30,965 nucleotides of DNA from a virus: IMG/VR virus record IMGVR_UViG_3300036795_000172, positions 1 to 30,965 of that record, one strand, 5' to 3'. Positions 18,770 to 26,691 of this stretch are shown here, piece by piece. The notes beneath the pieces are model-generated. The model was not told the DNA's origin and ran no database searches. It saw only the letters and a list, made by a program, of their open reading frames with translations. The stretch's first letter is position 1. The number at the start of each line of letters is the position of its first letter. A program made the position numbers and the translations under genes.

Positions 18770-19210
18770 TCAGTCCTCCTGGTGGCCGAGGTAGTTCAGG
18801 TGGCTGGCCGCCCCCTGCAACGTGGCGTGCAGTCCGGCGGCGAAGCGCAATGCCTCCGTGACTGCGGCGGCGGCGTCCTCGGCGCGCGTGACGGCCGTGT
18901 CGTGGTCGTCCCGGGCGGTGTAGTCGTACAACTTCGGGTCCGAGGTGATGGCCTGGCAGCGTTGGGCGAGCTGCCGCAGGGTCTGATCCATCAGCGCGGC
19001 GACCGACGAGAGGGAGCTGACGACGCTCTCGACGGAGTTCGCCCAGGGCAGCGCGTTGCTGGCACCTTGGCCGGTGGCGTAGTTGAGGTAGCGGATCAGT
19101 TCGTAGAGGGTCGAGCCGGCGGCGCGGGTGCGGTCGTCGCTGTAGGGGCCGTGCAGCGGCCAGTACTGGCCGACGACAGTCTCGGCGTCGGGGATCTCGG
19201 TGGTGCTCAC
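18770..19210 (-). CDS. Hypothetical helical protein (146 aa)
   Basis: 146 aa, GTG at 19208-19210 in a GTGA overlap. 'AAGSTLYELIRYLNYATGQG' and then several long helices ('SVVSSLSSVAALMDQTLRQL', 'AAAAVTEALRFAAGLHATLQ'), consistent with a helical bundle. The 'LYELIRYLNYAT' start is a pattern I have seen in small actinobacterial and phage proteins of unknown function. Ends in QED-stop, whose codons supply the ribosome site of the next gene. Confidence 0.72.
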   Translation of the reverse strand: MSTTEIPDAETVVGQYWPLHGPYSDDRTRAAGSTLYELIRYLNYATGQGASNALPWANSVESVVSSLSSVAALMDQTLRQLAQRCQAITSDPKLYDYTARDDHDTAVTRAEDAAAAVTEALRFAAGLHATLQGAASHLNYLGHQED

Positions 19211-19515
19211 GTGGTTCCTTCCTGGTTGGCGGTTGAGGGTGCGGGTTCCTGGTGTAGCGCTCTTTGGCGCTCGATCGCGTTGCGGTACCAGTCGAACGCG
19301 CCCTGCTTGCTCATGCCCAGAGCGGCGCCGATCTCGGTCCAGGTGGCGCCCTGCTCACGAGCGCGTTCCATGTCGATCCAGCGGCGGCCGATAAGCAGTT
19401 CAGCGAGGCGGTGCGCGACGGCCAGGCTTTCCAACGCGGTGACGGGGGGGAGGTCGGCCAGGGCCTTCTCGGCGAGGATGGCGGGGATGTCGAGGGCCTC
19501 GGGTGGGGTGTCCAT
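19207..19515 (-). CDS. HTH DNA-binding protein
   Basis: 102 aa, ATG at 19513-19515 with AAAGG upstream. The C-terminal half carries a helix-turn-helix: 'RAREQGATWTEIGAALGMSK' followed by 'QGAFDWYRNAI'. Such GATWxxIGxALGMSKQ(G/A) modules occur in many actinobacterial regulators. The N-terminal part is helical and acidic. It lies downstream of a hairpin and close to the integrase region, so a role in gene control of the phage is plausible, but its target is not known. Confidence 0.78.
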   Translation of the reverse strand: MDTPPEALDIPAILAEKALADLPPVTALESLAVAHRLAELLIGRRWIDMERAREQGATWTEIGAALGMSKQGAFDWYRNAIERQRALHQEPAPSTANQEGTT

Positions 19516-19574: not shown

Positions 19575-19817
19575 TCAGTCCGTCTCGGTGACCCACTGGC
19601 CGTCACGGTGGTACCGCGGGAAGGTGTCACGTAGGTGGTCATCTGGGGTGCCCGGCAGGACGACGCCCGATGAGATCGCCTTGCGGTCGGGGTGGGCGTC
19701 GTTGTATTCGGTGATCGCGCCGTACACGTTGCCGGTCGGCAGGTCCACGACTTCGTCCTTGATCAGGGCGCCTTCGAGGGGCTGGTCGTATTCGGTGGAG
19801 CTGATGAAGAACTTCAT
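19575..19817 (-). CDS. Small hypothetical protein (80 aa)
   Basis: 80 aa, ATG at 19815-19817 with GGGAGA upstream. 'MKFFISSTEYDQPLEGALIK', 'VYGAITEYNDAHPDRKAISS' and an acidic C-terminus. No family recognised. It is the first gene after the composite palindrome at 19831-19903, whose last base is only 14 bases upstream of the start codon, so its expression is probably controlled there. Confidence 0.72.
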   Translation of the reverse strand: MKFFISSTEYDQPLEGALIKDEVVDLPTGNVYGAITEYNDAHPDRKAISSGVVLPGTPDDHLRDTFPRYHRDGQWVTETD

Positions 19818-19830
19818 GGTCTCTCCCTAC

Positions 19831-19903
19831 GATGTGGTCAAGCTTTCTTGACGTTGAGTGTGCCCGCTAGCGGGTGGCTCCGTCAAGCCCACTTGACCAC
19901 ATC
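19831..19903. promoter_or_regulatory. 73-bp composite palindrome with twin operators
   Basis: Two copies of GTCAAG-N4-CTTGAC (19837-19852 and 19882-19897), each a palindrome, lie 45 bp apart. They are also arranged as a larger inverted repeat: 19831-19853 pairs with 19881-19903 at every position except the 4-base centres. A perfect palindrome CCCGCTAGCGGG (19863-19874) sits in the middle. It separates the small exported protein gene from the 80-aa gene, near the integrase. Likely an operator array, or part of an attachment region; I cannot tell which. Confidence 0.75.
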
Positions 19904-20111
19904 ACTCGTTCGGCTGCACCCGCACCAGCACGACACTGCCCAGACCAGGACTGTGCCGCTCCATCGCATCGAGCACACCCGGCCCGTTGGTCACCGTCAC
20001 GGACACCGGGGGAGACGGGACCACGACCTGCGACTGACAGCCGGCTGGGCCTCGAGCCAGGAGCAAGGGGATCGCGAGTGCGGCCAGCGCCGCGTGTTTG
20101 GTGGTCAGCAT
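19902..20111 (-). CDS. Small exported or membrane-anchored protein
   Basis: 69 aa, ATG at 20109-20111 with AGGAG 7 bases upstream. N-terminus 'MLTTKHAALAALAIPLLLAR' is a signal-type hydrophobic helix after one Lys, followed by GPAGC, an imperfect lipobox. The rest is short: 'VVVPSPPVSVTVTNGPG' and a charged end. It may be a lipoprotein or secreted peptide; small lysogeny-expressed surface proteins are known in prophages, but this one has no recognised family. Its stop codon overlaps the edge of the palindrome region. Confidence 0.65.
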   Translation of the reverse strand: MLTTKHAALAALAIPLLLARGPAGCQSQVVVPSPPVSVTVTNGPGVLDAMERHSPGLGSVVLVRVQPNE

Positions 20112-20150: not shown

Positions 20151-21209
20151 TTACAACCCGGCCGCGGCCTTCTCCAACCGGGCAGCCAACGTCGCGGTCA
20201 ACGCAGAATCCCGCTGCAGACCGCTGGACCGCTCCCAATAGCCCTGAGTGGTCGTCGCGTGCGCGTGGTCAGCCCACTTCTGCACCTCCTGCAACGGCTC
20301 ACCAGCGTTGAGGAGGTCGGTGATCGCCGAGGCGCGTAGGACGTGCGGGGTGACGGAATTCGGGTGCGGCAGACCAGCGTGCCGGGCGAGACGCCGGGTG
20401 ATGTCGATGATCTGGTGCCGGCCACGTGGCCCACCGGTTTTCGGGTCGAGCAGGACCGTCCCAGTGGTGCGGCCGGCGAGGACCTGGTCCAGGTGCTGCT
20501 GCAGGTCGGGCGTCAGCCGGCGCTGCCGCCACTGGCCGCGTTTCCGTTCGAAGTTCAGCACCGGGGGAGCCGTGGTGCGGTCCACGTTCTCCGTGAGGAG
20601 TTTCACGACCTCCGACTCACGCAACGCCAACTCGTACAACAGGGCGAACACCAGGCGTTCCTCCGGGGTGGCCGCCGCGGTGTGCATCTTCGCGGTGTCC
20701 CCCGGTTCCAACACCCTCGTCGCCCCGGCTGGCCGGCCGGTGGTGGACGTCCCGACCGCTGGGGCGTGATGCCGGTAGGACACCGGGTTCGCACGCGACC
20801 ACCCGCGAGGTGCGGCGTCCCCGAACAGACTCGACACCGCAGTCAGGACGCGCCGCTGGCTGCGGGCCGCCATCCCCCGTGACCGGGCGTACACCGTCCA
20901 CACGGTGACCGAGTCGAAGTCCAGGATCTCCAGGAACGGCACCGGCGCCACCCCGAAATGCTCGGCGGCCCACCGGGCGAACGCGGTGATGTCCTCGGTG
21001 TACCGGCGTTTCGTGTCAACCGAGGACCGGGCGGCACCGGACAGCCAGTGCAGGACCGCGCTGAACGTGGCGTCGTCGACAACCTGCCGCAGGCTGTCGA
21101 GCCGGTCGGCGCCGATCTCCGTGAGGAGCTGGTCCCGCACCGCGTCGTGCACCGACGTGGGCGCACGACGCTCTGGTAGGACAGCGTGGACGGGGACGAG
21201 GTCAGCCAC
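20151..21209 (-). CDS. int: Tyrosine recombinase / phage integrase
   Basis: 352 aa, GTG at 21207-21209 with GAGG upstream, starting inside the end of the methyltransferase gene. N-terminal SAM-like DNA-binding domain around 'SSVDTKRRYTEDITAFARWA'; catalytic domain with R197 (LALRESEVVKLL), K223 (FERKRGQW), H289 and R292 (TPHVLRAS), H315 (WADHAHATT) and nucleophile Y324 (TTQGYWE). All catalytic residues are present, so it should be active in integration and, with a directionality factor, excision. No excisionase or att core could be identified with certainty. Confidence 0.93.
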   Translation of the reverse strand: MADLVPVHAVLPERRAPTSVHDAVRDQLLTEIGADRLDSLRQVVDDATFSAVLHWLSGAARSSVDTKRRYTEDITAFARWAAEHFGVAPVPFLEILDFDSVTVWTVYARSRGMAARSQRRVLTAVSSLFGDAAPRGWSRANPVSYRHHAPAVGTSTTGRPAGATRVLEPGDTAKMHTAAATPEERLVFALLYELALRESEVVKLLTENVDRTTAPPVLNFERKRGQWRQRRLTPDLQQHLDQVLAGRTTGTVLLDPKTGGPRGRHQIIDITRRLARHAGLPHPNSVTPHVLRASAITDLLNAGEPLQEVQKWADHAHATTTQGYWERSSGLQRDSALTATLAARLEKAAAGL

Positions 21210-21933
21210 GGGCCACCTCGTCGGAGGGCCCGCTGTCGCCGCTGATCCGCTCATACACGAACAGCGCGTCGTGCAGGCCGAACCACTGGGGGATGCTGCG
21301 GGATTCGACCTCCTTGAACTTCGCCGCCGGCCACGCGCACGTGCACGGCTCGCTGTAGTGCGGGCAGTACGGGGTATCACCGAGCAGGGCATGCATCCGG
21401 TCGTCACCCGTGCAGCCGCCGGGAGGTTCCCCGATGTAGATCACCGTGTCGCCGTCGTAGAGGTCGACGGCATCACCAGTCCACGGCTCGGAGTAGGACG
21501 GCCAGCACAACAACAGAGTGCGGTCCGGGTGGCCGATCACGGAGGACTGGTCACCGACGAGAACCTCGGACCACTGGTGGCCGGCGAAATCGTTCCCCTT
21601 GCCGGCCGGGTGCGGGTCGTAGGCGACCACGTCGACACCGAGCTGGCGCAGCAGCATCGCCCAGTACCCGCCGCCAGCGCCGATCTCGACCACGCCGCGC
21701 GGCGAGTGGCCTTGGATGGCGAGCAGCGCGGCGGGTGTGGGGACGGCCCACGAGAACTGTTTCTTGATGTAGTGGTGGCCGCGGTCCTCCATCGGCCGGT
21801 GCTCCTTGAGGCATTCGATGCACGTCTCCCCGGGCTGCGGGGCGCCGTAGAGCGACGTGAGGGAACTGCCGTGGGTGCGTTGGTGTTCCAGCGCTGCGCG
21901 GTAGATGTTGAGGTACTCGATGTCGTTGAGCAC
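21202..21933 (-). CDS. SAM-dependent methyltransferase-like protein
   Basis: 243 aa, GTG at 21931-21933 with AAGGA upstream. SAM-binding motif I is clear: 'RGVVEIGAGGGYWAMLLRQL' (79-98), then 'VDVVAYDPHP' with Asp 106 as the acidic ribose ligand; 'TLLLCWPSYSEPW' and 'DTVIYIGEPPGG' follow as core strands. An N-terminal Cys pair (CIECL) and a C-terminal Cys/His cluster (PYCPHYSEPCTCAW) are extra. There is no DPPY-type DNA-methylase motif, so the substrate is unknown. Its last 8 bases overlap the integrase start, implying co-transcription. Confidence 0.78.
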   Translation of the reverse strand: MLNDIEYLNIYRAALEHQRTHGSSLTSLYGAPQPGETCIECLKEHRPMEDRGHHYIKKQFSWAVPTPAALLAIQGHSPRGVVEIGAGGGYWAMLLRQLGVDVVAYDPHPAGKGNDFAGHQWSEVLVGDQSSVIGHPDRTLLLCWPSYSEPWTGDAVDLYDGDTVIYIGEPPGGCTGDDRMHALLGDTPYCPHYSEPCTCAWPAAKFKEVESRSIPQWFGLHDALFVYERISGDSGPSDEVARG

Positions 21934-25208: not shown

Positions 25209-25276
25209 CGTTCTGTGTGGTGGTAGTCCTCAGTATCAAGGGCCGGGCGGCGGGACCGGTTCGTAGCCTCCCCGGC

Positions 25277-25678
25277 ATGTTGCGGCTCCCGATGCGTGTT
25301 CTGGACGCGATGCTCGACCACTGCCGGCGGGACCACCCGGTCGAGGCCTGCGGTGTCCTGGCCGGCCGCCGTGGCGGGGACCCGGACGAAGTGATCCGCA
25401 TGGTCAACACCGCCGCCTCGCCGACCCGGTACGGGTTCGATCCGCGTGAACAACTCGCCGTGTGGCAGCAGTTGGCCGATGCCGGCCGCGCACCGCTGGT
25501 CATCTACCACTCCCACACCGCCAGCCCCGCCAATCTCTCGCCCGTCGACATCGCGTACGCCGTTGAACCAGGTGCCGCGTACCTGGTGGTGTCCACCCAG
25601 CACGGCACGCCAGTGACCCGGGCGTGGGAGATCCGGGACGGCGTGCCGGTCGAGGTACCGATCGAGGTCCGTGCCTGA
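25277..25678 (+). CDS. JAMM/MPN metallopeptidase, Mec-like
   Basis: 133 aa. Full JAMM motif: Glu 23 in 'HPVEACGVLAGRRGG', then H78, H80, S88 and D91 in 'IYHSHTASPANLSPVD' (HxH-x7-S-x2-D). Length and sequence pattern ('AMLDHCRRDHPVEACGVLAG', 'YGFDPREQLAVWQQLADAG', 'VIYHSHTAS') are very like the actinobacterial Mec protein, which cleaves the CysO-cysteine adduct in cysteine synthesis. No cysO or cysM partner is nearby. A weak promoter (TTCTGT-17-TATCAA, 25211-25239) precedes it; the ribosome site is poor. Transcribed against its neighbours and flanked by direct repeats, it looks like an inserted cargo gene. Confidence 0.88.
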   Translation: MLRLPMRVLDAMLDHCRRDHPVEACGVLAGRRGGDPDEVIRMVNTAASPTRYGFDPREQLAVWQQLADAGRAPLVIYHSHTASPANLSPVDIAYAVEPGAAYLVVSTQHGTPVTRAWEIRDGVPVEVPIEVRA

Positions 25679-26207: not shown

Positions 26208-26214
26208 GAGATAG

Positions 26215-26256
26215 ACGGTACCGGCTATTGCCATGCTCCACAATAAGCGGTACCGT
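26215..26256. promoter_or_regulatory. Symmetric divergent promoter-operator
   Basis: Two CGGTACCG palindromes (26216-26223 and 26248-26255), centres 32 bp apart, lie in a larger inverted repeat. Each overlaps a -10 box TACCGT: plus strand TTGCCA (26228-26233), 17 bp, TACCGT (26251-26256); minus strand TTGTGG (26238-26243), 17 bp, TACCGT (26215-26220). A dimer bound at either palindrome would block one promoter, and cooperative binding would block both. Confidence 0.7.
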
Positions 26257-26283
26257 TAATCCATCGTCACCGAGGAGGACACC

Positions 26284-26691
26284 ATGGCCCGCCACTACGG
26301 CCCCACCAAGAGTCAGTTCGTCGACTTCGACGCCCAGACCGAGCAGGTCTACGGCGTGTGGTGCGCCCTGTGGGAGCAGCGCAAAGCCGACGCCACCCAC
26401 ACAGGACGCCCCGCCAACCGGATGGACATGAACGCCATCAACCGCGTCATCGCCGAGAACACCGACCTGGGCCAACTGCTGCGCTGGGCCATCGACGACG
26501 CCGAGGCAATGCCCGTCGACTTCGCGGTCAGCGCCGACGCGACCGCCGCCCTGTGGACCGCGCAGCAGCGCCTGCACGCCGAGTGGACCAATCTCCACCC
26601 GCCGATGCGTCTGGCGGTCGAACAGGAGACCTCGTGTCGCCACGGCGTGCCGTTCGCCGACGACTGCGGGGATTGCGACGCCGATTTCTGA
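26284..26691 (+). CDS. Plus-strand hypothetical protein, partner of RHH gene
   Basis: 135 aa, ATG with GGAGG 5 bases upstream. 'HYGPTKSQFVDFDAQTEQVY', 'GVWCALWEQRKADATHTGRP', 'NAINRVIAENTDLGQLLRWA', 'TAQQRLHAEWTNLHPPMRLA' and Cys-rich end 'SCRHGVPFADDCGDCDADF' (possible zinc binding). Mostly helical; no family recognised. Divergent control with the RHH gene suggests a regulated module in the lysogen, such as a repressor-controlled effector, but toxin/antitoxin function cannot be shown from the sequence. Confidence 0.75.
   Translation: MARHYGPTKSQFVDFDAQTEQVYGVWCALWEQRKADATHTGRPANRMDMNAINRVIAENTDLGQLLRWAIDDAEAMPVDFAVSADATAALWTAQQRLHAEWTNLHPPMRLAVEQETSCRHGVPFADDCGDCDADF

Follow-up and report, generated by a model that had tools for sequence, protein, structure and literature searches.

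A twin GTCAAG-N4-CTTGAC site in a phage genome fragment resembles the predicted promoter-operators of CylR2-like repressor operons

Operators of the lambda and P22 type consist of paired dyads that are bound by a dimeric helix-turn-helix (HTH) repressor and lie over a promoter, and those recognized by P22 c2 have an AAG-N4-CTT core. Lambda-type sites are closely spaced and come in threes. In the cluster A mycobacteriophages, L5-type stoperators are many asymmetric 13-bp sites found genome-wide. The locus described here, in a 30,965-base virus record (the window), shares with the lambda/P22 operators two dyads over a predicted promoter and with the P22 c2 sites the AAG-N4-CTT core, unlike the lambda-type sites in the number and distance of its dyads; no CI-like gene was found in the window. 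It was also considered as a stoperator, a reading rejected because GATGTGGTCAAG occurs exactly only in the two arms of this one site. The closest likeness is instead to the autoregulatory-type operators in operons of CylR2-like repressors (HTH_3/XRE, 'PbsX family') that include a small membrane protein, with which it shares two copies of GTCAAG-N4-CTTGAC set 40–47 bp apart. In those operons the first copy is over the –35 box and the second just after the –10 of a promoter that faces the operon, an arrangement that is predicted for the phage site. No published statement of this architecture, in which twin dyads bracket the –35 and –10 elements, was found in the open literature.

The window comes from an actinobacterial phage and carries terminase, portal, head-protease and capsid genes, and its terminase is related to those of Streptomyces and Microbacterium phages. 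As the preliminary description had it, two 16-bp dyads with identical half-sites lie at 19837–19852 (GTCAAGCTTTCTTGAC, here O2) and 19882–19897 (GTCAAGCCCACTTGAC, here O1), 45 bp apart whether counted from start to start or from centre to centre. Each sits in a 23-bp arm of a larger inverted repeat, the left arm at 19831–19853 (GATGTGGTCAAG-CTTT-CTTGACG) and the right arm at 19881–19903 (CGTCAAG-CCCA-CTTGACCACATC), neither assigned to a strand. Compared with each other, the arms agree at 19 of 23 positions, and the four at which they differ coincide exactly with the two N4 dyad centres, so that the repeat does match everywhere outside these centres, and an outer GATGTG/CACATC pairing extends the symmetry beyond both dyads. 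The name of a 73-bp palindrome is nevertheless not deserved, since the inner 27 bp between the arms are asymmetric about the same axis; the perfect 12-bp palindrome reported in the middle exists (19863–19874, CCCGCTAGCGGG), but its centre is displaced by 1.5 bp from the main axis. The intergenic gap amounts to 84 bp (19818–19901) and not to about 100, and the right arm enters the stop codon (19902–19904) of the upstream 69-aa ORF. When the window was simulated 60 times under an order-2 Markov model, and every pair of dyads with the same 6-bp half-site (whatever its sequence) and a gap of 0–8 was counted, such twins arose at 0.033 per window, and the additional 6/6 outer match was absent from all simulated twins. 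The twin is the only one of its kind in the window, where no further copy was detected with up to 2 mismatches, in agreement with the initial report, and no comparable twin is present in 33 kb of a relative. The symmetry of 19831–19903 is real and not a product of chance.

The same twin recurs in cellular genomes. A scan of 84,980 genomes, in which the half-sites were fixed while flanks, gene association and promoter were left free, returned at least 119 further stretches with the exact twin. Among the matches listed, spacing is concentrated at 40–47 bp with a peak at 44–46 bp, and a small CylR2-like XRE repressor is encoded in 85 of 120 twin loci, or 85 of the 101 genome loci outside Bathyarchaeota. 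These proteins match Pfam HTH_3, their nearest PDB structures being 9k3w (PbsX family) and CylR2 (1utx). Up to 1.5 kb from a twin, HTH matches have a density of 0.256 per kb, against 0.005 per kb further away, a difference of about 50-fold. Again among the matches listed, the XRE gene points away from the twin in 79 of 85 loci, with a hydrophobic ORF between the twin and the HTH gene in 73 of those 79, an order that recalls the CylR1/CylR2 pair. Dyads at the listed XRE loci are preceded by T (153/170) and followed by A (154/170) in about 90% of cases. In these loci the first dyad bears the –35 box (TTGAC) and a –10 (TAnnnT) stands just before the second: a TAnnnT is found 17–18 bp past TTGACx toward the XRE gene in 53 of the 79 listed and in the other direction in only one of 79. 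The association with the gene and the directional TAnnnT together place the twin around the promoter of the repressor operon. Six genomes checked whole hold the motif 2–4 times each, nearly always at such twins. Exact twins are rare within a class (4 of 395 Actinomycetes genomes), and the listed repressors accompanied by the twin span Lysobacterales to Actinobacteria.

Twins without a nearby XRE gene also occur. Bathyarchaeota genomes (L006, L009, L011, L022, L043, L046, L047, L084 and others) bear several each, at spacings of about 32–45 bp. A Kribbella genome (L041, around position 1763) has a twin, followed 27 bp later by a third copy, with G/C-type flanks like those of the window, which precedes a GAF-like gene and has no local XRE gene. 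A different palindrome, CCACGTCAAGCCCGCTTGACGTGG, forms an intergenic-looking tandem array with a 42-bp period in an actinobacterial genome (L132, 1458–1730). Among viruses, the only other contig with the exact twin is an inovirus-like one (L003, IMG/VR, 6.9 kb, with a 98-bp terminal repeat), which resembles the window in having the twin without an XRE gene and differs from it in its spacing of 34 bp and in the lack of an apparent –35/–10 bracket. When the search pattern was relaxed, most of the cases obtained in viruses were AT-rich and unrelated, and GATGTGGTCAAGN4CTTGAC had no other viral match.

By analogy with the XRE-operon twins, a promoter can be predicted at the phage site on the minus strand. 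Its –35 (TTGACG, 19881–19886) would lie inside O1, whose minus-strand TTGAC forms it, and its –10 (CACACT, 19857–19862) would follow 18 bp later, with O2 immediately downstream after 4 bp and the 12-bp palindrome in the spacer. This geometry of 45/18/4 (centre-to-centre distance, spacer and offset) is one of the classes observed in the XRE set. The –10 lacks the leading T and is thus one base off TAnnnT; nothing resembling a –10 was seen on the plus strand of the twin, and a consensus promoter scan called no promoter at the site. About 20 bp past O2 there is a good ribosome-binding site (GGGAGAG) followed by ATG 19817, the start of an 80-aa ORF (19575–19817, minus strand) that would be the first gene of the transcript. 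The phage promoter is probably real, although its –10 is weak. A predicted start within O2 and a good ribosome-binding site at ATG 19817 make repression of the leftward operon the likeliest function, and we consider it somewhat probable that 19831–19903 is a two-site operator around a minus-strand promoter driving the leftward genes from the 80-aa ORF on. The preliminary description had proposed either a lysogeny operator with looping or integrase arm sites around an attachment core. Its operator gains from the presence of the same twin at repressor-operon promoters in many genomes. No repressor that would use the site for lysogeny was found on the fragment, and looping is unneeded, as a single promoter is enclosed by the two sites, which are about four helical turns apart.

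The phage site departs from the CylR2-like operons in several respects. It has G/C at all four flanking positions where XRE sites have T and A, a weaker –10, the extra GATGTG/CACATC symmetry, which the operator reading leaves unaccounted for, and no adjoining XRE or membrane-protein gene, in a contig that covers part of a larger genome. Moreover, any dyad over a –35 box contains GTCAA/TTGAC, so that convergence could account for some of the match. The twin could then be the operator of a phage protein outside the XRE family that shares the core only through the –35 box, such as the 102-aa HTH protein (MDTPPE...ATWTEIGAALGMSKQGAFDWY..., 19207–19515, minus strand). Its gene comes after the 80-aa ORF as the second of the predicted operon, the position that the HTH gene has in most XRE operons, its predicted fold is a small four-helix HTH bundle, and the divergent flanks would suit a different protein. 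Profiles do not place it in the XRE family, and no significant relative emerged when its fold was searched (best E 0.26); the G of the half-site, the N4 gap and the 45-bp spacing match as well, none of which a shared –35 box requires. This alternative is judged unlikely, and we infer that a dimeric HTH repressor binds the phage twin. No homologue was found for the 80-aa ORF, neither it nor the 102-aa protein has close relatives among phage records, and no useful match to the palindrome region was obtained in phage or plasmid DNA.

Elsewhere in the window (26210–26261) there is a second nested double palindrome, with two CGGTACCG cores 31 bp apart inside a larger inverted repeat. It lies between a divergent RHH-like gene (ATG at about 26208, minus strand) and a plus-strand gene at 26284, and is probably the operator of the RHH protein.

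Such an inverted repeat could also act as a nucleic acid hairpin between the 69-aa and 80-aa genes, as a terminator, a 3'-end or a 5'-leader structure. Both strands fold far better than shuffled sequences (z –5.6 and –6.2), and the outer 12-bp stem is perfect and begins at the stop codon of the 69-aa ORF (19902–20111, minus strand), whose product resembles a small lipoprotein or secreted peptide. Against a hairpin, both arms are dyads in their own right, a property that hairpin formation does not call for, and in both arms the mismatches fall exactly at the dyad centres, which a hairpin has no reason to spare and which favour the operator. There was no match to Rfam and no terminator call, and an intrinsic terminator was discarded for the lack of a U-tract after the stem-loop. 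A structural role of this kind is considered improbable.

The main rival, kept alongside binding by another phage protein, comes from the neighbouring gene. The site lies, as first reported, about 250 bp past the end of the gene for a 353-aa, Xer-like tyrosine recombinase (20151–21212, minus strand, inferred start GTG 21212), which like the 69-aa and 80-aa ORFs is encoded on the minus strand. The arms could be one or more sites for this enzyme, serving dimer resolution or integration. They can be read as 11-6-11 sites, GATGTGGTCAA-gctttc-TTGACGTTGAG and, inverted, GATGTGGTCAA-gtgggc-TTGACGGAGCC; the dimensions fit, while the inner arms are conserved over 6 bp only. The outer match is exactly 12 bp long, palindrome and recombinase cassette move together, and the closest matches of the recombinase are on Streptomyces and Kitasatospora plasmids, one of which is a phage-plasmid with terminase, portal and ParA genes; no close relatives of the recombinase, the 80-aa or the 102-aa protein were found in IMG/VR. 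Recombination between the two arms would not be possible, however, as they are inverted and differ in their spacers, and the half-site and spacing fit a repressor operator instead. In two related Streptomyces plasmids the candidate site, AGCCTCTTAA-N6-TTAAGAGGCT (one copy with a single mismatch), directly precedes the start of the recombinase gene and differs from the window arms. These copies (L159, 3901–3926; L163, 19512–19537) have different 6-bp spacers and make a plausible candidate for a Cre/lox-like recombination site, which is absent from the window. The window arms thus differ in placement from the sites of the related loci, as they are not just upstream of the recombinase gene. The integrase and excisionase arm sites of the earlier proposal are not supported: only core-binding and catalytic domains were matched in the recombinase and no arm-binding domain was detected, which led to the rejection of a tyrosine-integrase attP with arm sites; its nearest hits are plasmid and phage-plasmid recombinases; and a search for attB-like matches to GATGTGGTCAAGN4CTTGAC, allowing up to 1 mismatch, found none in 395 sampled Actinomycetes genomes. 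Recombination at the arms has a low probability in our assessment, and an operator is better supported than an attachment site.

A 75.8-kb IMG/VR contig is collinear with the window over 0.2–19.2 kb at 69–84% DNA identity and also matches it in short stretches at about 22 kb and at 24–27 kb, which indicates that the window probably represents much less than half of a genome as long as this one. Among the features kept in this relative is the JAB-domain (Prok-JAB) protein at 25217–25678 on the plus strand, labelled as a tail protein in PHROGs. Where the window has about 19.2–22.0 kb, the relative has an unrelated recombinase and other genes instead, lacking the window's recombinase, its neighbours and the whole recombinase-to-HTH cassette, and it contains no GTCAAG-N4-CTTGAC with up to 2 mismatches. 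The comparison with relatives that keep the flanking genes, proposed in the preliminary description, thus gave a mixed answer: the symmetry is gone, but the recombinase and both neighbours are gone too, and only outer genes are shared. With symmetry and genes absent together, the palindrome belongs to an exchangeable recombinase-to-HTH cassette.

The window has no XRE gene of the CylR2-like type (best HMM E 0.73; Pfam HTH_3 E 0.003, below the cut-off). The relative encodes three HTH_3 proteins, all outside the part well covered by the window, which makes the absence of a repressor here weak evidence, and in a fragment a missing regulator proves little. The INPHARED phages found to have CylR2-like XRE genes are phages of Firmicutes and of the gut; none is an actinophage.

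The model proposed for the phage promoter-operator is that O1 would cover the –35 box and O2 the transcription start, located within O2 about 33 bases before ATG 19817, so that a dimeric HTH repressor on both would shut out RNA polymerase. The promoter would drive the leftward operon, comprising the 80-aa, HTH and 146-aa genes and those beyond, but not the recombinase gene, which is located upstream. As for the repressor, its gene would belong to the host or lie in the part of the phage genome beyond the fragment, and the purpose may be control of lysogeny or of early genes. A further proposal, highly speculative, is that the phage has placed one of its early promoters under the control of a CylR2-like repressor absent from its own genome, a membrane-coupled host regulator timing the switch-on of phage genes.

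The phage site is ordinary in kind, as a promoter-operator, and unusual in matching a repressor family whose gene is absent from the fragment. Its analysis gives a symmetric sequence that had no explanation a testable reading as a promoter-operator, specifying the base pairs and the class of candidate binding protein, and assigns a precise twin-operator architecture, with dyads bracketing the –35 and –10 elements, to the CylR2-like repressor family. Should the phage have no repressor copy of its own, this would mean, if true, that a phage switch is wired to a regulator of its host.
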